From: Bacteroidota bacterium
Lineage (GTDB): Bacteria > Bacteroidota > Bacteroidia > Bacteroidales > UBA10428
Assembly (NCBI GenBank): GCA_003252385.1
Contig: QKEH01000082.1
Location: 1 to 39,799 of the forward strand
Direction of reading: 5' to 3'
DNA: 39,799 nt
Part shown: positions 9,240-30,745 of the stretch, piece by piece
Layout: each line of letters begins with the position of its first letter
How positions within the stretch are numbered: position 1 is the first letter of the stretch
Notes under the pieces: model-generated
What the model was told of the DNA's origin: nothing
What the model saw: only the letters and a program-made list of their open reading frames with translations
Databases searched by the model: none
Made by a program: the position numbers and the translations under genes

Positions 9240-10214
9240 CTACCACCAGCCTCTTACATTATAGGTAACCGTTTCGGGTTGGTTATTGCCATAGGCAACA
9301 CCCACATCACGATAAGCTTGAATGCGTTCGCTTTCCTGCTCCTGATTGCGCAGCACATACTTCCATTCACGGTCATCAATCTCGTTCACCTTTTTGGCAA
9401 TGGCATTACTCAATTTCTGTACATCGCCAAAGCAGGAAGCTTCCGGATCGATAGTAGCCAGGATCTGGGCAGCTTTCTCGGCCGAAGCAATGTCCTGACC
9501 GGCATTCCAGATTCCCTGAGCCTCGTTCAGTTTGATCTGACAGTCGTGATTAATGTACTGGGTGTACATGTCGGGAACCTTGTTCATACACTGGTCGTAG
9601 CAGGTTTTGCATACCTCAGGTACCGAGGTGAGTCGCAGAATGGCGCCACCAAAGTTGTTCATTCCGGCCAGGGTTTCAGCCTCTTTCAGTATAAAGTCGC
9701 AACGGGTGTTGTAGTACTCCATAATTTTGGTTTTACCCTTATCCAGGAAACTTTGCAGCTGAGGATCGGACGGATTAATCCGTTTCAATGCCTCCATATA
9801 GGCTTTGGTTTCGTTGGTCCCAACGCCTTTGAGCTGTAAGGAAGTTGAAGTAAACAGCACGCCGTCGATCCCGTCGCCAATGTAGAGGGTTACCTCCAGG
9901 TTCATAGCGGTCATGGGAGGGGCAGTAGCAGTTAGTTCCTTATCGAGCACAACAATGTTGGGTGTAATTATAAAACGGGGCGATAGCGAACTGCCGGCCA
10001 TGCCGTTTTTGCTAACTACCTGTCCCAGTTTGTTGGAGAGCATGTTCTTAGCCGATTCCGGTAAACCTTCTACCTGATCGGACACATAGGGATTGATTAC
10101 AATGCGGCCTAAATCCTCGTATTTTCCTTTATCGTTTTGAGCCGAAAGGCCAAGGAATCCCATTGAAAGGATTCCGGCCAGAGTCAGATGTATCCATCTT
10201 TTTTTCATCTGCAT
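9240..10214 (-). CDS. Exported protein of unknown function, possible TolB/CsgG-like N-terminal domain
   Basis: A 324-residue protein with a signal peptide (MKKRWIHLTLAGILSMGFLG region, cleavage near LSAQ at about 26). The first mature segment (about 32-130) contains LGRIVINPYVSDQ, then LSNKLGQVV and FIITPNIVVLDKELT, an alternating strand/helix pattern like the nucleotide-free Rossmann-type folds of CsgG/TolB-N/FlgT proteins; this is a pattern-level suggestion, not a firm match. The second half has a CxxC pair (CKTCYDQC, about residues 197-202), a further Cys near 216 and 251, and is helical, ending NVRGWW. It is the last gene of the five-gene leftward operon, 6 bp after the DUF6175-like gene. 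Either Met1 or Met3 (10208) could start; Met3 gives the more usual MKKR signal start. Function unknown. Confidence 0.72.
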   Translation of the reverse strand: MQMKKRWIHLTLAGILSMGFLGLSAQNDKGKYEDLGRIVINPYVSDQVEGLPESAKNMLSNKLGQVVSKNGMAGSSLSPRFIITPNIVVLDKELTATAPPMTAMNLEVTLYIGDGIDGVLFTSTSLQLKGVGTNETKAYMEALKRINPSDPQLQSFLDKGKTKIMEYYNTRCDFILKEAETLAGMNNFGGAILRLTSVPEVCKTCYDQCMNKVPDMYTQYINHDCQIKLNEAQGIWNAGQDIASAEKAAQILATIDPEASCFGDVQKLSNAIAKKVNEIDDREWKYVLRNQEQESERIQAYRDVGVAYGNNQPETVTYNVRGWW

Positions 10215-10220
10215 CGGGTA

Positions 10221-11183
10221 TTATTTACCGCCCAGGTAAATGGTTGCACGTCCTAAGCCCTGGGTGGTTAGTTTGTTGGGAATGCTTAGCTGATTGGCCA
10301 GGTAGTCGCTCAGATCTTTAACATAGCGACGGGTGTCCATAGCACGCTGGCTACCATTGCGCTCGTAATACAAAGGTATGCGTACCTGTTCGAACAGCAT
10401 CATGGTGGCGGTGGCATCGGTGGTACTGAAACGTCCGTTTACGGTGTTGTCAGCCAGCCAGTCTTCAATCAGAACGCCCAATTCTTCGTCATCGGGTCCA
10501 AAAGTCGACTCCAGGTCTTCGCCCCAGTCATCCCATACTTTAATGCGAATAATTACTTCGCGGCCATTGGCGAACATATCGTCGAAATGGTTTTGCAGGC
10601 TGTTGCTGAAGTTGTCCATGTGCGACAGAACGGCTTCTTCGAGCAGTACGGGCAACTCCGAAGAGAAGGAGGGAGCTCCGGTTCCGGAGGCAGAAGCAAT
10701 TTGCTTATCGGTGTAAGCATCAAGTCCCTGCAGGTTGAAGGTGACCGATTTTTTGGGGCCGGTAACATTAACTGTCCAGGTGAGCTGCATAATGATGTCG
10801 GCTTTGGCAATGGCTTTGAGTTTATCCACGGGGCTCTCGGCAGCTTCGGCACCGGTTTCCTTGGAGGTCATCATAGCATCTTCGGCGGCAGTTTGTTCGA
10901 GAGATTTAATGGCCGATTCCATGTTTTTAAGGGGGAAGCCCCGTTCGGCCATTATACCGTTGATTTTACTGATTACCAGGAGTAGATCCGGATTTTCCTG
11001 GAACGCTTTTTTGTAATTGGGAATTTTAACCGTGGTTCCCTGGTTGTCGAATTCCATCATGTATCCGTTGGTATTGCACCAGGCATCGCTGGGCACCACC
11101 ATAAGGGTTGGTTTTTTGGCTTGCGAAAAGGCTATTCCGGTACCCAGAGCCAGGAGGAACAGCGCAGAAAGTATTTTCTTCAT
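10221..11183 (-). CDS. DUF6175-like exported protein
   Basis: A 320-residue exported protein with a signal peptide (about 1-20, cleavage after SQA). The mature N-terminus KPTLMVVPSDAWCNTNGYM, then FDNQGTTVKIPNYKKAFQEN, LLLVISKINGIMAERGFPLK and ESAIKSLE are features I associate with DUF6175 proteins of Bacteroidota, recalled from memory rather than searched. The body has alternating strands and helices up to residue 180 (IIMQLTWTV, GLDAYTDKQIASASG), followed by a helical region and an Asp/Glu-rich loop (DDWGEDLESTFGPDDEELG), then a second strand-rich part. The pattern resembles lipoprotein or ring-forming periplasmic components with repeated small domains. It lies between the 164-residue LPP20-like gene (24 bp gap) and the CsgG-like candidate (6 bp gap). 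Molecular function is not established. Confidence 0.7.
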   Translation of the reverse strand: MKKILSALFLLALGTGIAFSQAKKPTLMVVPSDAWCNTNGYMMEFDNQGTTVKIPNYKKAFQENPDLLLVISKINGIMAERGFPLKNMESAIKSLEQTAAEDAMMTSKETGAEAAESPVDKLKAIAKADIIMQLTWTVNVTGPKKSVTFNLQGLDAYTDKQIASASGTGAPSFSSELPVLLEEAVLSHMDNFSNSLQNHFDDMFANGREVIIRIKVWDDWGEDLESTFGPDDEELGVLIEDWLADNTVNGRFSTTDATATMMLFEQVRIPLYYERNGSQRAMDTRRYVKDLSDYLANQLSIPNKLTTQGLGRATIYLGGK

Positions 11184-11207
11184 TAGTTTATTGATTTTAG
11201 TTGGTTA

Positions 11208-11702
11208 CTAATTGGTTTTAATAATGCCATCGGCAATCAGTTGCTGACGCAATTCCTGACGTTTCACCCGTACAATAACTCCATAGGTTACTTCGGAGCC
11301 GGCAAATTTGTAGTCTTTGGCAATTTTCGGAATCAGCGATTCGTCCTTCATCGAAACAAAATCGGCATATTTTCCGCCATCGGCAAAGAAGGTGAAGAAG
11401 TAGTCCTGGTATTTGTCCTGAGCATTGGCTTCTACCAGTACGGGTTTGGTATTGCATTCGTTTTTTCCGTTACGGATACCTTTAAAGATGACATCGCGCA
11501 CGGCATTCTTTTTTGCCTGTTCCACCGCATCCTTGCGGTCTTTTCCATAGCCATAGGCTTTTAAGGTTTGCGAGCCGTCGAGTTCTACGCCCATGCATTC
11601 GGTTTCGTAGGTGTAATTACCAGCGATACGTTTTTGCGGGGTACATGCTGCCAGCATCGCAAGGAGTATGGCGGCAATGGAAAGAATGTGTATTCTTTTC
11701 AT
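11208..11702 (-). CDS. LPP20-like lipoprotein
   Basis: A 164-residue predicted lipoprotein: the signal MKRIHILSIAAILLAMLAAC ends in a lipobox LAAC with Cys20. The mature part contains an LPP20/FlgO-FlgP-like pattern: strand YETECMGVELDGSQTLKAYG, helix RKDAVEQAKKNAVRDVIFKG (the AKKNAV helix is typical of this fold), then YQDYFFTFFADGGKYADFVS and a last strand VTYGVIVRVKRQELRQQL. It is a clear paralogue of the next upstream gene (11723-12238): both share AKKNAV/CKKNAV, VIFKG/VVFKG, FADGGxYxxxVS and a closing strand-helix. LPP20-type lipoproteins sit in the outer membrane in other phyla; that location is inferred here. It lies 20 bp after its paralogue, in the middle of the operon. Confidence 0.75.
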   Translation of the reverse strand: MKRIHILSIAAILLAMLAACTPQKRIAGNYTYETECMGVELDGSQTLKAYGYGKDRKDAVEQAKKNAVRDVIFKGIRNGKNECNTKPVLVEANAQDKYQDYFFTFFADGGKYADFVSMKDESLIPKIAKDYKFAGSEVTYGVIVRVKRQELRQQLIADGIIKTN

Positions 11703-11722
11703 GATGGTTATTTTTTTTTGAA

Positions 11723-12238
11723 TTAGAATCCGCTGGACAATCCTTTAATGATCCCGGCATTTTCGAGGTCTCTGCGTAACAGGTCTTTCTGAACAGTTAC
11801 CACAACACCTACTTTGTACTCTTTTTTGCTCACTTTCACTTTTTCGGTACCGGTACCCTGACTGGTAAGGGATACGTACTTCATGTAGCTGCCGCCGTCG
11901 GCAAAGAAATTTTCAAAGTAACGTTCGAACTGCTCATCAGCGTTGGTGGAGCGAGCCAAGGGCTTCTGCGAGGTGCAGCCCTGACCACCGCCAAAGCCTT
12001 TGAAAACAACTCCGTGCACAGCATTTTTCTTACATTGTTCCATAGCCACCTGGGGTTTTTTAGAGAACGACCATACTTTAATCAGATAGGTTCCTTCGGC
12101 ACCGGTTCCGGCACATTCAATTTCGTAGCGCCATTCTTCGGTATCCTTATCGGCTTTACGGCCGGCCTGGGCATTTAGCATAGTACTCATCATCATAAGC
12201 AAACCTGCTGCAAATGCAAATTTTACGGTTTTAGTCAT
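11723..12238 (-). CDS. LPP20-like exported protein, paralogue of the adjacent lipoprotein
   Basis: A 171-residue exported protein with a conventional signal peptide (about 1-23, ending MLNAQA) instead of a lipobox, so unlike its neighbour it is probably soluble in the periplasm. The mature sequence repeats the same plan as the 164-residue paralogue: EWRYEIECAGTGAEGTYLIK, a helix with EQCKKNAVHGVVFKG, a short Gly-rich loop with one Cys, then FERYFENFFADGGSYMKYVS, and a strand YKVGVVVTVQKDLLRRDLEN. The pairing of a lipidated and a non-lipidated copy side by side suggests subunits of one complex. It is the second gene of the operon, 33 bp after the 428-residue exported protein. Confidence 0.75.
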   Translation of the reverse strand: MTKTVKFAFAAGLLMMMSTMLNAQAGRKADKDTEEWRYEIECAGTGAEGTYLIKVWSFSKKPQVAMEQCKKNAVHGVVFKGFGGGQGCTSQKPLARSTNADEQFERYFENFFADGGSYMKYVSLTSQGTGTEKVKVSKKEYKVGVVVTVQKDLLRRDLENAGIIKGLSSGF

Positions 12239-12271
12239 CGATTTTAGTGTTTAAAAGATTGAATGGTAAAT

Positions 12272-13558
12272 TTATTTGATTTGTCGAATTAGCATGCCTT
12301 CGTAAAAGAGTTTTTTGGGTCCTTTAAAATAGGTGGCATCAATGTTCTGGGGCTTTTCATCTTCGCCCTGTCCGGCATTGTAGCGGTTATCCCATATTTT
12401 GCTCTGGTCTACAAAAATAATACCTTTCCGGGCGTAAGAGGTACGGCCTGTTTCGGGGTCGAGTTGTTTTTCAAGCACCTCAAACCGGTCGCCCTTTTCA
12501 ATACCTTCCTTCATTCCCACTTTTGCCATGAGCGGATCCACAGAAATCAGGGGCGATTTGGTTTTAAACACATCGTACTCGCGTTGCAGGTTGGCATATA
12601 CCTTGTCGATGTTTCGAATGGTAACAATGGTAAGCATATCGGCATCGGAACGTTGTTCGGTAAGCGAACCCATGACCAGGCTTTTTGACTTCTGGCTGCC
12701 AATGTATTTAAAACGGAACAAGTTGCTGGTATCAAATGCAGCTGCTTTCGAAGCATCGTAATAGGTGCTGTCCACCCAGTAGTCGTTGTAAAATACTGCA
12801 GCTACCGAATCGGTCCATTCCAGCTGATAGAGGAAGGAAACCGTCCAGAGGGAGTAGCCCTGGCGTGCTTTTTCGTAAGCCACTTTGGCGGCAGCCAGTG
12901 CGGCTTGCTGGGCAATGGGTTGTTGAATTTTGTAGGCCAGTGCCTTGGCTATTTCGTAGGCAGCCAGTGCTGGAAGTTCGTTATCCACAAAACTCATCTT
13001 ATTCATCACCACAAAGGTATTGCCCAGTAGTTCTTCACCGGCATCGCCCAGCGAGGCTACTCCGCGAACTGTACTTTTAGCCAGGTTGGCAGCAGCTTCG
13101 GTGGCATCGTAAAAGCCACGATCCATAATCAGCGACATGTCGAAACTGCCGTTGGCGGAGCGATTGAACCATTTGGCCACCATTTTATTGCCCAGCTTCG
13201 ACTCGTTCATAAACTTCTCGATGATGTAGGGCAATTCTTTTTGCAAATTGTCGATGTTGCCGGAATCTTTGGCATCAAAGGACAGGCCATACATTTCTTT
13301 TTCGGCATTGGTCAACGCATAGTTCTTCGGATTCATCGTTTTGACATCCACCGTGTGGTTGTTGTACTTTTCCGGAAAAGGAGCCGAATCGTAAGCAGCC
13401 ATAATGATGTCCTTTTGCGGAAAAGCATCGGATTCAATCAGAATAGTGTGGAGCGAGCTGCGCCGGTACTTATCGGTTTCCAGATTCAGTTCGGCATAGC
13501 ACAGATGAGAGAAAAATAAGGCACACGTTATGCCTGTAATTTTAAGGGTGAAATTCAT
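12272..13558 (-). CDS. Exported protein, first gene of the LPP20/DUF6175 operon, FlgT-like C-terminal pattern
   Basis: I place the start at 13558 (not at an upstream ATG 45 bp earlier) because it gives a clean signal peptide, MNFTLKITGITCALFFSHLC ending YAE, for a 428-residue precursor. The mature protein is mixed helical and strand; a long Ala-rich helical part (around residues 155-245) is followed by a segment with VTIRNIDKVYANLQREYDVF. Near the C-terminus comes a small-domain pattern: VGMKEGIEKGDRFEVLEKQL, then GRTSYARKGIIFVDQSKIWD with NRYN. The latter (GDxFEVLE ... GxIxVxxxxxxW) resembles FlgT/CsgG-associated C-terminal domains; this is inference from pattern. It heads a leftward operon of five exported proteins. 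I do not recognise a characterised family for the full length. Confidence 0.72.
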   Translation of the reverse strand: MNFTLKITGITCALFFSHLCYAELNLETDKYRRSSLHTILIESDAFPQKDIIMAAYDSAPFPEKYNNHTVDVKTMNPKNYALTNAEKEMYGLSFDAKDSGNIDNLQKELPYIIEKFMNESKLGNKMVAKWFNRSANGSFDMSLIMDRGFYDATEAAANLAKSTVRGVASLGDAGEELLGNTFVVMNKMSFVDNELPALAAYEIAKALAYKIQQPIAQQAALAAAKVAYEKARQGYSLWTVSFLYQLEWTDSVAAVFYNDYWVDSTYYDASKAAAFDTSNLFRFKYIGSQKSKSLVMGSLTEQRSDADMLTIVTIRNIDKVYANLQREYDVFKTKSPLISVDPLMAKVGMKEGIEKGDRFEVLEKQLDPETGRTSYARKGIIFVDQSKIWDNRYNAGQGEDEKPQNIDATYFKGPKKLFYEGMLIRQIK

Positions 13559-13630: not shown

Positions 13631-13659
13631 TTTTACGGGTTGTCACCTAACCCGTAAAA
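13631..13659. promoter_or_regulatory. Perfect 11-bp inverted repeat upstream of the exported-protein operon
   Basis: TTTTACGGGTT (13631-13641), a 7-bp spacer and AACCCGTAAAA (13649-13659) form perfect arms. The element lies 73 bp upstream of the operon's first start codon and about 90 bp from the purL terminator. Neither side carries a proper T-run, so it is a better candidate for an operator or leader hairpin than for a terminator. Confidence 0.55.
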
Positions 13660-23332: not shown

Positions 23333-25528
23333 TTAATTCAGGTAGGTAGTAACAAATTTATGGTATAACGCTTTGTTTTTAAGAAGCTGCTGGTGGGTAC
23401 CCTGCTCGGCCAGCCCTCCTTTTTCGAGAACCAGAATGCTATCGGCCTCTTTGAGGGTGTTAATCCGGTGAGCAATGCTGATGATGATTTTGTTCCTGAA
23501 TTTCTCCCGGATACCCTGCATGATTACCTGCTCGGTTTCCAGGTCGAGGGCACTGCTTGCTTCGTCCAGAATGATGATCTCAGCATCGGTGAGAAATACC
23601 CGGGCCAGGGCAATTTTAAGACGTTCGCCGCCCGAAAGCTTGATTCCGTTTTCGCCAATTTTTACATTGTAACCCAGGTATTGCGAACGGATAAACTCGT
23701 GAATATCGGCCATTTTTGCGGCTTCAAAAATTTCATCATCGCTGGCTCCGGGTTTGGCATAGGCAATATTCTCTTTTATGGTGCCATCGAAAAGGTAAAC
23801 TTCCTGGGGTACCACCGCCACTTTTTTACGGAAATAACCCGCCGGTACGGTATGTAACTCCTGTTGGTTAATGGTAATACTGCCTTCGTAGTGGTCGTAA
23901 ATTTTACTGAGCACTTTAATCAGGGTAGTTTTGCCTGAACCATTTCGCCCAACAATACCCACAAACTGTCCAGATTGAAGGGTAAAGGAAAGCTGATCCA
24001 GAATATTGCGCTCCTGGTTGTTCTGGTATTTGAAATTCACCTTGTTAAATTCAATTTGCCAGGGAGTATTTAACTGCGTTACGGCCGGAAGGTTGTAATC
24101 TATCGGCTCCTGAACCAATACATCGTTCAGGCGTTCGAACGTCACTGAAAGTTCGGTAAAAACAAACCACAAATGCGAAATACGCGAAAGGGCATTGGTA
24201 ATCATGGTGAAAATGGTAATAAAAGCCACGTACTGCCCAATGCTTAACTGATCGCGAAAGGTCAGATAGGCACCGTACCAATATACCACCGCCTGTCCGG
24301 CAAAGAAAATAGATTTAAGTCCGGTGGACAATTGAATGTATTGCTTTTCGGTTTTAAAAACCTTGTTCAGTGCGCGGGTGTACTGGTTTTTCCATTTCCA
24401 GTATTTCAGTTTTTCGATCCCCAGCAGGCGTACCGTTTGAATGCCCAGCAGGGTGTCCAGAAATTCGCCCATCGTCTTCAGGTTCTCTTTAAAAATAATG
24501 TTTTCGAGATTTTTTAAGCGAGGAGTAAAAACCAAGGTAATCAATACATACACTACAATAAAGGACAGGGAAATAAAGCCCAACGTACGGTTGTACACCA
24601 GCAACACCACAATGTACCCCAGAACAAAGAGGAAGTCGATCAAACTTTCCAGAATAGAAGGGTTCAGGGCGTGTCGTATCTTTAGGTTTTCCTGAAAGCG
24701 GTTGATGAAATCCTCGCGTTTGTGGTTATCGAAATACTGTTGCCTAAGACGGATGAAATGGTTGAAAAAATTGCTAAAGAACGAGCGCTCAAAGGCCACG
24801 TTGAACTGAGTGAGCAGCAAATTCCGGCCGAAGCTCAACACCACCTGGCTGGTGAAAATGACTACCATGCCCAGCAAAATGGCATACAGTAACTTGATGT
24901 TTTCGTTAACCAGCACCTGATCGAGTATGGTTTGGGTAAACAAGGGAAGAGCCAGCCCCAACATTTGCAGGCAAAGTGTGGCAACCAGGATTTGTCCCAA
25001 CCGTTTTTTGGATTGCAATATGGGTTCCAGGTAAAACCGATGGAAAATGTTTCGATGCTGCTTTCGGCGGTCGTCAACCAACTCGTTGAGTTCGTCGTTC
25101 TTGAAGATCGAATCGGTAGGGGTCAGATGCAACACCACACCGTTCCATTTCGAAGCAAACTCTTCCCGGGTGAATTCCATCTTTCCCACTGCCGGGTCGG
25201 CAATCCAGATTCTTTGATCCTTCACCTTGTAGATGACTACAAAATGATTGCCTTCGTAATGGGCAATGCACGGAAGGTTGAGTTCGGCGAGGTTTTCGAA
25301 ATCGAGCTGGTAGCCTTCGGTTTCGAAGCCAAAGGATTCGGCCAGCTCGCTGAGGGTGTACAAATCAATGCCTTCGACCGATACCCCGGCTTTTTCGCTT
25401 AGCAGGCTGCGAATATCGTAGTAGCCATAGTATTTGAAAATCATGGCCAGGCAGGTAGTGCCGCATTCCATCATGCCCGGTTGCTGGATAAATGGAAAGG
25501 GTTTAATTTTTCTGGTGAAGGTTCGCAT
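23333..25528 (-). CDS. Peptidase-containing ABC exporter (C39 peptidase-ABC, PCAT)
   Basis: A 731-residue bacteriocin-type exporter. The N-terminal C39 peptidase (about 1-130) has oxyanion Gln16, nucleophile Cys22 in MMECGTTCLAM, His95 in EGNHFVVIYKV and Asp111 in IADPAVG, so a complete catalytic set. It would cleave double-glycine-type leaders from the exported peptide. The transmembrane domain spans about 165-450 with six helices. The nucleotide-binding domain (about 485-731) has Walker A GRNGSGKTTL, signature LSGGE, Walker B IIILDEASSALD and a switch His in ISIAHRIN. It forms a two-gene operon with the HlyD-like adaptor. The promoter is at 25558-25590. No outer-membrane TolC-like channel or precursor peptide gene is seen nearby. 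Confidence 0.95.
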   Translation of the reverse strand: MRTFTRKIKPFPFIQQPGMMECGTTCLAMIFKYYGYYDIRSLLSEKAGVSVEGIDLYTLSELAESFGFETEGYQLDFENLAELNLPCIAHYEGNHFVVIYKVKDQRIWIADPAVGKMEFTREEFASKWNGVVLHLTPTDSIFKNDELNELVDDRRKQHRNIFHRFYLEPILQSKKRLGQILVATLCLQMLGLALPLFTQTILDQVLVNENIKLLYAILLGMVVIFTSQVVLSFGRNLLLTQFNVAFERSFFSNFFNHFIRLRQQYFDNHKREDFINRFQENLKIRHALNPSILESLIDFLFVLGYIVVLLVYNRTLGFISLSFIVVYVLITLVFTPRLKNLENIIFKENLKTMGEFLDTLLGIQTVRLLGIEKLKYWKWKNQYTRALNKVFKTEKQYIQLSTGLKSIFFAGQAVVYWYGAYLTFRDQLSIGQYVAFITIFTMITNALSRISHLWFVFTELSVTFERLNDVLVQEPIDYNLPAVTQLNTPWQIEFNKVNFKYQNNQERNILDQLSFTLQSGQFVGIVGRNGSGKTTLIKVLSKIYDHYEGSITINQQELHTVPAGYFRKKVAVVPQEVYLFDGTIKENIAYAKPGASDDEIFEAAKMADIHEFIRSQYLGYNVKIGENGIKLSGGERLKIALARVFLTDAEIIILDEASSALDLETEQVIMQGIREKFRNKIIISIAHRINTLKEADSILVLEKGGLAEQGTHQQLLKNKALYHKFVTTYLN

Positions 25529-25842: not shown

Positions 25843-28800
25843 ATGATCACATTTCGGGGAAGGAGACTGGTAATGCTGGTCATATTGTCGGTTTATTCCG
25901 GATTATTGAGAGCCCAGGTGGATACGTTGCATTACTTGCCCCCATTGTACTATACGGGCAACAACAATAGTGACTATGGCGACCAGTATATCATCCTGTC
26001 CACTTTTGAAATCACCCCGTTTATCGTTACTATCCGCAACCGCGATGGTTCCTTCAATCAAAGCGTTTCGATATCGCAAAGCTCTCCGGCGCAAATCCAT
26101 ATGGGCTATCAGTTCAATGCCGTGGGCTTAATTGGACCTACTCAAAAAAACACAGTCCTGAATGATGAAGGGACGCGGTTCAAAACCTTTCTTCGTCAAC
26201 CTGACCCACCGTACCAGTTTGCAGGCAACCATCATTACCTCCAAAGGGACTGTTGGATTGGGCAAGGAATTCTATGCCGGATTTATGGCTTCCGTTCTGG
26301 AAGCCAATAACCATACCAATACCAGTAATCGGAGAAGGAGCCATTTTATTTCGGTTATGGCTTCGGAAAACAACACCTTTATTACCTTTTCCAACTCCAG
26401 GGTGCAATGGGACGGGCACCCGGTCAATACTTTTACCATTGCCCTTCAGGCGGGCCAATCGTACGTGGTTACCAAGGATTTTTACAATTCAGGGTTGAAC
26501 AATACCACGGTCAATCACTTCAATGGCACCAAAGTAACTTCCAATAAGCCGGTATCGGTAACTTCCGGGTCATGGACCTCGGCCATGGACAATGGCTTGC
26601 GGGATATTGGTCTGGACCAGATTGTGCCCGTGGATATTGTGGGCGATGAATACATTGTACTGCGGGGCAATGGCTCCAACCTGGTTGAAACGGTTATTGC
26701 AGTTTCAACCGGAGGGACCAACCGAATCTACCTTAACGGAAGCAGTTCTTCCTATACTACCCTGACTGGAGAAGGTGATTATGTAATTATTCCAGAGAGT
26801 CAGTATTCCGCCAATAACAATATGTACATCCAATCGGATCGACCTATCTACGTATATCAGTCGCTTGCGGGATCAACCAATAATGCGACCACCGGAATGG
26901 TATTTGTGCCAAGGCTTTCCTGCAACGTGGATAAAGAAGTTCAAATATCGTACGCCAATTTTTTGGGTAATCCGGAGGTAAAACTGGTTACTCAGGCAGG
27001 TTCCGGTATCACCATCAATGGAATCGGTGTGGGAGGAGCAAAAACAGTTCCGGGTAATGCATTCTGGGAGTCGTATTCTATAAATAGTACTACACTGGCA
27101 GCCTGTAATCCGGGCCCGGACTGGAATTTTACGATTCGCTCAACCGGGGCGTTAAATGCCGCATTGACCATCGAATCAGGGGCTATAGGAGCTGGGGGCT
27201 ACTATTCCGGTTTTGGCACCGTACCCGAAATCAGTTTTAACCCAATTATTGCACTCAATGGTTTTTGTGCATCCAATGCCCAATTGAATGCCTCGGGCTA
27301 TTCAACCTACAACTGGTATAAGGACGGGGCTGTTATACCCGGCGAAACAGGCCCTGTATATTACCCCAGTACTCCGGGCCGCTACAAAGTAGTGGGTATA
27401 ACCACCTGTGCCGGTCAACCCAGTTATACCTACCCTTCCGGCGAAGTGCTCATACTTCCATGTTTGTCCATTAATCCCGATAGTTTATCCATTCAGGAAG
27501 GGGACCTGGCCAAACCCAATGCATCCTTAACCATTCAACTCTCACATCCCTGGGATGAAGATGATGTAAGCTTCGATTATACAACCAGTCCGCTTACCGC
27601 CACCCAGGGGCTGGATTATCAATCGACCAACGGCACTGGTACCATTGCTTCCGGTACTACCCACTTTACAGTGGATGTGCCCATTTTAAACGACCTGCTG
27701 GCTGAAGACACCGAAATTTTTAATTTGGTGCTATCCAATCCCTCCAACGCCATCATTGAATCGCCTATCGCCAGGGCTTACATTACCGACGATGGCGATC
27801 CAAAACCTCAAATTAATTTGGAGGCCTCAAAAACGGTGAATGAATCCGCAGGTACCGTTACCTATACAGTTACGTTAAACCGGTTGAGCGGGCAAACCAT
27901 TACGGCCGGTTTCGCCATAACGGATGGTACTGCCCAGGCCGGTTTGGATTACAGCCGGTCCAGCTATACCGGTACACTTACATTTTTGCCGGGCGAACTG
28001 AGTAAAAGCATTACCGTTACTATTATCAATGATAATATTCATGAACCGGGAACTAACGAACGGTTTACCATTACCCTGAGTGCTCTTGTGAATGCAACCA
28101 GTGGCAATTTGAGTTCCACCACATCCATTGTCGATAACGAAACCACCCCGGTGATGACCCTTACAGGGGTAAGTGTAGCCGAGGGGGGCATTATCAATAT
28201 CACCGGTACTCTTTCGCATCCCAGTGCGCGAAATGTATTTTTTGCGTACTATACGGCAAATGGCACAGCAGTGGCCCCCGACGACTATACGGCCTTGCCA
28301 CTCATTAACGATACCATTTATGCGGGATCTTTAAGTTTTTCAGTTGGGGTAAATACCATCGATGATGCTACTTTGGAAGGAAGCGAACAGTTCCGGTTTA
28401 TGGTACAAAACCTGCAAAATGCCGTATTTTTAGGTTCTGCAACAAGTTTTACCCTGCTGCCTCAAATTCTGGATAATGAGGGCTTGCCCCAAATTACCAT
28501 TGCCGATGCAACCGGCGAGGAAGGAACATCCATAAAAATACGTGTCACCGTTTCGCATCCAAGTAGCACCCCAATAAGCTTTGAGTACCGCACGCTGGAA
28601 GGTTCGGCTGCCGAAGGGACAGATTATGCAGGGATCAACCCGGCTCAACTTTTCAGCATACCCGCCAATATGCTCCTGGATTCTATCCTGATAGCGAGTG
28701 TTGAAGATACCGATGAAGAAGGCGATGAAAGCTTTGAGGTACATCTGTCCCATGCTTCTTCCAATGCGCTATTTAATGACAGTATAGCCATTGTAACCAT

Positions 28801-30745
28801 TACAGATAATGACGAAACACCCTTGGCCCATAAGGATACCTACAGCACCAACGAAGATACACCGCTTACCGACAACGTGATGAGTAACGACGCCGGCTTG
28901 GGCGACCCACCGGTCGGTATCATTACGTATACTATGCCCCTGCACGGAAGTGTGTCCATAAATACCTCCACGGGTGCGTTTACCTATTCGCCTGCCGCAG
29001 ACTATTTCGGTAGCGACAGCCTACAGTATACCCTTGAGGATGCCGATGGCGACCAGTCCAGTACCTGGCTGGTGATTTCGGTTCTTGCACAAAATGACAT
29101 CCCGGTGGCTGTAAGGGATACCTTTTACATTGCCGAAGAACAACTTTTGGATACGACCATACTTCACAACGATTATGGACTGGGCGATGGTATTGATACC
29201 ATTGTGGTAACCAGCCACCCGGCTTCGGGTACCTTGCTTTTTAACAGCAACGGACATTTTACCTACACTCCGGTGACTGAGTTCTATGGCATTCGGAATT
29301 TTACCTACGAAATTACCGATGGAAACGGTGACCGAACTTCGGCCATTGTCCGCATTGTAGTGGCCTATTCCGACGACTACGACCCGGTGGCGGTAAACGA
29401 CACCCTCTCAACACCGGAAGATGTTCCCGTAGCAATTGCCCTGCTAACCAACGATTACGATACTGATGGTAACAACACCATCGACCTGGGTAGTGTGAAT
29501 GTGGTAACCCCTCCATTGCATGGAACAACTTCGGTGAACTTTATCACTGGAATAGTAACCTACACTCCAGGTACCAATTATCAGGGCAGCGACTTCTTCG
29601 AATATCAGTTTAGCGATGCCGGCTCTCGTACTTCCAATACGGCACGGGTGATCATTGCCGTTACCGCAAACAACGATGTACCAGTGGCCCGATGCCATAA
29701 ATCGGTGAATGCCTACCTAAATAGTACGGGCAGTTATACCCTGACGATGGCCCTAATTGACAGTAGTTCGTACGACCCGGATAGCGATCCGATAAATTTT
29801 ACGCTTAGTAAAACCAGTTTTACCTGCGCCGATATAGGCTACCATACCATTACCCTGACGGTACGCGATCCTTTGTTGGCACAATCGCAATGTACCAGCA
29901 GTTTGCACCTAAGGGATTCTACCTTGCCCTCAGTGATTGTATCGCCCGGAAACCAGGTGCGATACTGCACTGGCAGTTCCTGTGGTCAGAAAGTATTTTA
30001 TACCCGGCCCCAGTTTTTCGACAATTGTGGCGGTACGCAATACGGCACCCTGAAGGCAGGCTATACCAGTGGTTCTGATTTTCCGGTAGGTACAACTAAA
30101 ATTAAGTACAGTTACACCGACCCTTCGGGCAATGGACCGGTAGCAGATAGCTTTAATATTGAACTCCGGGATACCATTCGGCCTGGTATACAGTGTATAT
30201 CGGATACGGTATTTGTCTCCCCCGGATTGAACTTCAATATTAACTCTGCATCGTATGATCCCTTGGTCTCCGAAGTATGTGTTTATTCCTTATCTCAGGA
30301 TTATAACGGAGCGGCCACTTTGAACGGGATTTCCCTGAATAGCGGCATACATGCCATTACCTGGACGGCCACCGATGCCTCGGGCAATACGCGGACTTGC
30401 GTACAAGTACTCCGTGTATACGATTCATTAGTGGTTACCCTTGCTTCAAGTGATGCCAACGATACCATCTGTCAGGGCGAAACCCTGGTTTTAACAGCGA
30501 ATGTAACAGGTGGCATGGGAGTATATTCCTACCAGTTTTATATCGACGGTTCGCCTGTTGCCACTGGGGTAGTTGGTAATACTTTAACTATTTCCAGCCT
30601 TTCCTACACGCAAATGCATACTATTCTGGTGGAGGTAAGCGATGACTACGGCAATGTGGAGCAATCGCCTTCCCGGGTCCTGAAGGTGTGGAAAGAACCT
30701 CAGAACGGTCCGGTACAACATATTCCGAACCGTAAAGGAAACTAA
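25843..30745 (+). CDS. Giant modular surface protein: IgGFc-binding-like head, Calx-beta, cadherin-like and HYR repeats (one frameshift)
   Basis: The protein is read in two frames: 25843 to about 26185, then the frame of 26162-30745; removing one A from the AAAA at 26182-26185 restores NDEGTRFKPFFVNLTHRTS, giving about 1633 residues. The N-terminus (MITFRGRRLVMLVILSVYSG) is a signal peptide. Residues about 35-460 resemble the IgGFc-binding N-terminal domain (GDQYIILSTFEITPF, GDEYIVLRGNG, YVYQSLAGSTNNA). Four Calx-beta domains follow (bases about 27470-28820; marks such as DYTTSPLTATQGLDY, ITDNDET), then three cadherin-like/tandem modules (about 28830-29690, NEDTPL, DGNGDRTS), then HYR-type modules with Cys pairs (about 29930-30420) and a final Ig-like piece. 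It ends NGPVQHIPNRKGN without a recognisable T9SS tail. A cell-surface adhesin is the likely role. The 26162 ATG is an internal Met. Confidence 0.82.

Follow-up and report, generated by a model that had tools for sequence, protein, structure and literature searches.

A conserved operon of five exported proteins in Bacteroidales, a candidate envelope assembly

Here we describe a five-gene operon, whose genes we call A to E, in 39,799 nucleotides of DNA (that whole stretch is the window) from a Bacteroidota bacterium of the order Bacteroidales (GenBank assembly GCA_003252385.1, contig QKEH01000082.1). An initial annotation, made from the sequence alone, had proposed it as an operon of exported proteins that builds an undescribed envelope assembly. 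The genes are a conserved unit in related genomes, and the predicted structure of the first protein, A, suggests with moderate confidence a likeness to FlgT, a protein of the Vibrio flagellar H ring. We give an even chance to the reading that all five genes encode one flagellum-independent periplasmic assembly on the inner face of the outer membrane.

The locus and its boundaries

All five open reading frames lie on the minus strand, with intergenic gaps of 33, 20, 24 and 6 bp, and by inspection each protein carries an export signal, a signal peptide in A, B, D and E and a lipobox (LAAC) in C. Five co-directional genes, 6-33 bp apart and each with an export signal, are what the initial annotation had reported. 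The features are as follows.

12272-13558, minus strand: gene A, 428 residues, signal peptide; FlgT-like in its middle and C-terminal domains by predicted structure
11723-12238, minus strand: gene B, 171 residues, signal peptide; small exported protein of an unnamed family, paralogue of C
11208-11702, minus strand: gene C, 164 residues, lipoprotein by its lipobox (LAAC); paralogue of B, optional in relatives
10221-11183, minus strand: gene D, 320 residues, signal peptide, DUF6175 (PF19672)
9240-10214, minus strand: gene E, 324 residues, signal peptide, no family match
9215-9186, minus strand: intrinsic terminator at the end of the operon, a 12-pair stem and a T run
13631-13641 and 13649-13659: inverted repeat between purL and A, perfect 11-nt arms
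13779-13752, minus strand: terminator-like stem behind the upstream gene purL

The sharp bounds claimed for the operon, a terminator downstream and an inverted repeat upstream, are both present, and the operon is probably transcribed apart from purL, as a unit by itself, because the terminator-like stem at 13779-13752 closes that gene. Terminator-like sites number 14 in the region, against 6.0 expected from shuffles. The Bacteroidetes -7 motif, TANNTTTG, has no match in the 242 bp upstream of A, and an upstream ATG would lengthen A to 443 residues. Base composition is not unusual, with a GC content of 47.3% in the operon and 48.3% in the window. After the operon, past a gap, come a LemA gene and two TPM-domain genes.

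A conserved unit with patchy presence

Profiles for A, B/C, D and E were searched in 247 genomes from the order, and DUF6175 was also searched in 296 genomes of the phylum, the window's genome being included in each survey. DUF6175 occurs in 57 of the 247 order genomes (56 over the cut-off) and in 13 of the 296 phylum genomes, while A was found in 41 of the same 247, B/C in 47 and E in 52. D is also present in 40 of the 41 order genomes that bear A, in 46 of the 47 that bear B/C and in 51 of the 52 that bear E. Moreover, the partner lies adjacent to D on the same strand in 38 of 40 order genomes for A, in 46 of 46 for B and in 51 of 51 for E, and in four of them A stands on the other side of D. 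Fisher values for co-occurrence are below 1e-30; the genomes are related, and hence the adjacency weighs more.

In a scan of named genomes, relatives of D turned up at no fewer than 557 loci, and the best 80 of these were kept; by record title they come mostly from Flavobacteriia and uncultured Bacteroidetes. Two marine flavobacteria among the carriers are Leeuwenhoekiella blandensis MED217 (L056), which has C, and Cellulophaga fucicola DSM 24786 (L063), which lacks it. They were found through D and are uninformative on loci that lack it. Gene order was counted in 79 of them, leaving out L072, where the A and B/C regions are split into several frames, probably by assembly error or decay. The orders are ABDE (39 loci), ABCDE (33), AABCDE (3), ABDEABC (2), BDE (1) and ABD (1), the last two both at contig ends, so that A, B, D and E follow one another in that order in 77 of 79 loci, and the operon genes found share one strand in 80 of 80. 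In seven order genomes (G032, G073, G083, G122, G149, G187 and G246) a single open frame spans B and D, and a B-D fusion also occurs in four loci of other classes (L156, L157, L158 and L160). Among neighbouring open reading frames of at least 100 residues, no cluster occurs in more than 11 of the 80 loci. The initial annotation had said that genes rarely found together in Bacteroidota would speak against it, and the survey clearly found the reverse: their togetherness is far beyond chance and the operon is a conserved unit. Its one named family, DUF6175, has no described function, and no paper naming it was found in the literature searched.

Near the window's genome the operon is patchy. A search for D in eight congeners and in 14 further members of the family found none, several of these genomes being incomplete. 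The site of the operon is variable, because in one congener (G006) the same flanks, LemA-TPM-TPM (57, 67 and 46% identity) and purL, enclose a glycoside-hydrolase-like gene with a sorting tail of the type IX secretion system (T9SS) and not the operon. Four other congeners with a readable stretch show no LemA or TPM gene beside purL, and in a fifth the contig ended (L202). Viral contigs gave 36 pattern matches, none confirmed as D.

The D-bearing genomes that were tested are, with few exceptions, without flagellar genes. Flg_bb_rod was found in two of 66 D-bearing genomes (64 without) and flagellin in two of 39, the same two (G375 and G507), and the window's own genome, 97.55% complete, has no Flg_bb_rod and no Flagellin_N match; among 14 control genomes, both searches matched in four. 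The absence of a flagellum, remarked on earlier from the window, is thus borne out in the whole genome and in relatives. The two exceptions (L159 and L160), the sole flagellated genomes among those tested, both carry B-D-type genes; at the A position, G507 has a diverged gene and G375 one that gives no A match.

Elsewhere in the window, a 1527-residue protein at 26162-30745 combines Calx-beta, Big_9, cadherin-like, IgGFc-binding and HYR domains and looks like a large surface adhesin, and a Peptidase C39 - ABC transporter at 23333-25528, an exporter of the bacteriocin type, adjoins a gene for 372 residues that has no Pfam match at E <= 1e-5.

What the five proteins resemble

D is a DUF6175 protein, as first suggested, matching the Pfam profile over its full length (E 1e-126, 422.4 bits against a cut-off of 23). 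No Pfam family exceeds its curated cut-off in A, B, C or E of the window, no NCBIfam family does so in A to E, and neither CsgG (PF03783) nor LpoB matches any of the five at E <= 1. Nothing credible came from searching PDB sequences with the profiles of A, B/C, D and E (no rows for B/C; the best rows were eL14 at E 0.0028, ROS kinase at 0.017 and tRNA ligase at 0.097). When the single members of the alignments (41 sequences for A, 42 for B/C, 42 for E) were scanned against Pfam, weak and scattered rows below E 0.1 appeared, and we do not believe PL48 for A (5 of 41 members, best E 0.0047) or HTH_CodY for B/C (10 of 42, best E 0.0012). The repeat family ARM_TT21, seen in 17 of 42 E proteins (best E 1.6e-5), is likewise not believed as a family; its rows fit a second half of E that is probably helical. 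Cysteines 172, 205 and 225 of E are invariant in the 42 sequences. The likeness of E to TolB or CsgG that had been proposed is unsupported, there being no family match and a score against CsgG that, for A and E alike, falls below the best shuffle.

For A the predicted structure says more than the sequence. The AlphaFold2 model, built from 41 sequences, has a mean pLDDT of 86.9 and a pTM of 0.83, and in a Foldseek search of the PDB it found FlgT (3w1e) and chain 0 of the LPHT ring (8z5n), both at E 1.3e-6 with a probability of 1.00. These were the only two rows at E <= 0.001, the next being TraT (0.16) and CsgG (0.38). VIA-align placed model residues 31-428 on residues 96-354 of 3w1e (Z 7.9) and residues 29-428 on residues 117-377 of the 8z5n chain (Z 8.4). 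It also aligned residues 331-428 with the N-terminal barrels of F1 ATPase and FliI (1.6-4.0 Å over 61-75 residues), and residues 32-333 with Chlamydia CT253 (Z 6.8 over 149 residues). With moderate confidence, the model thus suggests a protein with FlgT-like middle and C-terminal domains. The FlgT label first proposed for A is supported by predicted structure, and sequence methods find no link; FlgT_C (PF16538) has no match over the cut-off in the window's A.

Relatives of A vary in build. In some Flavobacteriia the protein has an N-terminal extension of about 150-540 residues (L087:5139-7961, L056:5250-7949, L116:5689-8451 and others), with no clear common family in the three scanned; that of L107 has UVR motifs (E 2e-11). 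Directly behind E, two loci have a further A, which is diverged and precedes B and C (L053:7814-9589 and L057:10980-12749); its last third is barrel-like by eye and has no Pfam match.

B and C are paralogues (phmmer E about 1e-26, 33% identity, HHalign probability 99.9). Both had been called LPP20-like, a homology that we find unsupported: LPP20 (PF02169) has no match at E <= 1 in B or C of the window, and it is absent from the 11 families matched by any of the 42 B/C relatives at E <= 0.1. HHalign of B, C or both against 25 LPP20 domains scored 15.7-19.5 against shuffle maxima of 12.2-15.0, above all shuffles and aligned on the expected helix-and-strand motif, and not significant. The model of B (pLDDT 85.6) has the order strand-strand-helix-strand-strand. 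HP1454 of Helicobacter came only 40th (Z 3.8, rmsd 3.8 Å over 72 residues), in the company of ribosomal and archease rows whose Z is 3.6-4.8, and was not used. Homology of B and C to LPP20 is accordingly unproven, not refuted.

A proposed assembly, its rivals and known systems

In the reading that we favor, the five proteins would work together in the periplasm, attached to the outer membrane at its inner face. The part of A would be that of FlgT in the Vibrio H ring, to dock or to self-assemble as a platform by way of its middle and barrel domains, B and D would sit on this platform as a tight pair, and E, with its conserved cysteines and probably helical second half, would close or bridge the complex. 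C, plus barrel partners in some lineages, would tie the complex to the outer membrane. The residues after the lipobox cysteine of C (TPQKR) hold neither K-(D/E)2 nor Q-A-(D/E)2, the motif of lipoprotein surface export according to PMC5080379, and C probably faces the periplasm because that motif is missing. As for barrel partners, a barrel-like gene stands directly behind E in seven of the 80 loci, 26-119 bp away in six of them; the one that was scanned (L069) is DUF3575 (E 4.8e-7), and the A-like gene of G507 has a weak barrel match (20.6 bits against a cut-off of 27). Such a complex would most likely support or guide something that lies in or passes through the outer membrane, much as the flagellum is helped by the H ring; the ring shape and the cargo of the complex are what we infer.

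Several observations weigh against this reading. C is optional, being absent from the 39 of 79 loci that read ABDE, and a strict pattern finds the lipobox in 16 of 41 C proteins. The set is not always whole: four of the 57 D-bearing order genomes have none of A, B and E (in one of them, G197, D is below the DUF6175 cut-off), seven of the 57 have E as well as D but neither A nor B, and G169 has A, B and E without D. The likeness of A to FlgT has low TM-scores (0.20-0.24) and a whole-chain rmsd of 11.6-11.7 Å, the Z values of 8.4 and 7.9 are about what the tool states as its typical best without a clear match (7 to 8), and the first 95-116 residues of FlgT are unmatched, the alignments starting at 96 or 117. 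We infer that chain 0 of 8z5n is FlgT from a listing that names only the LPHT ring, for which no paper was found in the literature searched; FlgT and Bacteroidetes occur there together in one paper. By sequence, FlgT_C appears in one of the 41 aligned A proteins (E 0.093), with no other match to FlgT, and the model of B stayed without a match at E <= 0.001 in Foldseek or at Z >= 5 in VIA-align.

A narrower proposal is that the operon encodes a relative of the H ring that does without a flagellum, an outer-membrane collar of Bacteroidota with a FlgT-like platform around some non-flagellar machine, and maybe the stock from which flagellar outer rings came. We hold this to be rather unlikely.

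It is unlikely, too, that A to E form a periplasmic signaling complex that senses outer-membrane stress or damage, with an output, in some lineages, through a caspase-type protease fused to C. Two such fusions to a Peptidase_C14 domain, each lying between B and D, are what suggests it (L118:2324-3694, E 1.8e-20; L010:40-1431, E 4.1e-22), together with the patchy presence and self-contained layout of the operon; these two are the only fusions seen, however, and none is in the window. The commoner neighbors include response-regulator and sensor-like genes (clusters in 5 to 7 of 80 loci), but these genes stand at scattered distances and on either strand. In the literature searched, nothing related was found for LPP20, caspase and Bacteroidetes together. 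The genome of L010 has its A in two separate frames.

That A or D forms the channel of a CsgG-type pore, through which a surface polymer or protein would be secreted or exported, seems to us quite improbable. One argument for it comes from a relative of the same class and another order (L161 in G420), where the gene before B-D-E, at the A position, matches CsgG just over the cut-off (21.0 against 20.8 bits) and LpoB just under it (21.8 of 22.3 bits); the tail of this protein, GLKEGDKF, resembles the barrel of the A family, with a weak profile score of 3.0 bits. We count this bridge in favor of the FlgT-like assembly as well. In the four loci of other classes with a B-D fusion, the gene after the fusion has an LPP20 domain over the cut-off (E 6.7e-6 in L156, 1.0e-8 in L157, 1.3e-7 in L158 and 5.9e-10 in L160), and its end is E-like in L156 and L158, weakly so in L157 and not in L160. 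CsgG- and LPP20-type proteins are thus present in the wider cluster, B, C and E of the window being without such a match. D itself scores 26.6 against CsgG over 89 columns, above the maximum of 16.6 in 15 shuffles, but the E of 0.0055 holds for a single comparison only, and the likeness is suggestive only. Against a pore, moreover, A, D and E of the window have no CsgG match, and no membrane-crossing hairpin was identified in the model of A, where alone it was looked for.

That the operon serves T9SS or gliding, which share its phylum and compartment, is very improbable: GldN, near universal in the order (227 of 247 genomes), is no commoner with D (53 of 57) than without it (174 of 190), four D-bearing genomes lack it, and by eye, with no family scan of neighbors, no T9SS gene was recognized among the 16 commonest neighbor clusters.

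Apart from D, itself a DUF, the window proteins of the operon lack a curated family, though at least 557 loci hold a D relative. The genes are a defined set, and their deletion could reveal an unknown envelope structure of Bacteroidota; a FlgT-like protein in bacteria without flagella, if true, would open the origin of flagellar outer-membrane rings to test.

Three known systems invite comparison with the assembly that we favor. To DUF6175 the operon contributes a full-length member, D. With the CsgG/LpoB superfamily it shares the A-position protein of the relative L161, over the cut-off of CsgG and just under that of LpoB, whereas no window protein from A to E matches at E <= 1. The Vibrio H ring consists of FlgT and the lipoproteins FlgO and FlgP and helps the flagellum to pass the outer membrane, according to four papers (PMC7693769, PMC7990780, PMC6424402, PMC6375700); there FlgO and FlgP are outer-membrane lipoproteins (PMC7990780), flgO, flgP and flgT have neighboring locus tags in gammaproteobacteria (PMC6375700) and lie together in Aeromonas (PMC4960245), and FlgT is treated as part of sodium-type flagellar motors (PMC6375700). 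The operon differs from it in that flagellar genes are missing from nearly all D-bearing genomes tested, A leaves the start of FlgT unmatched, a likeness of B and C to FlgP is unproven, and D and E have no known H-ring counterpart. It is alike in that the predicted fold of A finds FlgT, and in that A is encoded together with a lipoprotein gene, as flgT is with flgO and flgP in the papers cited.

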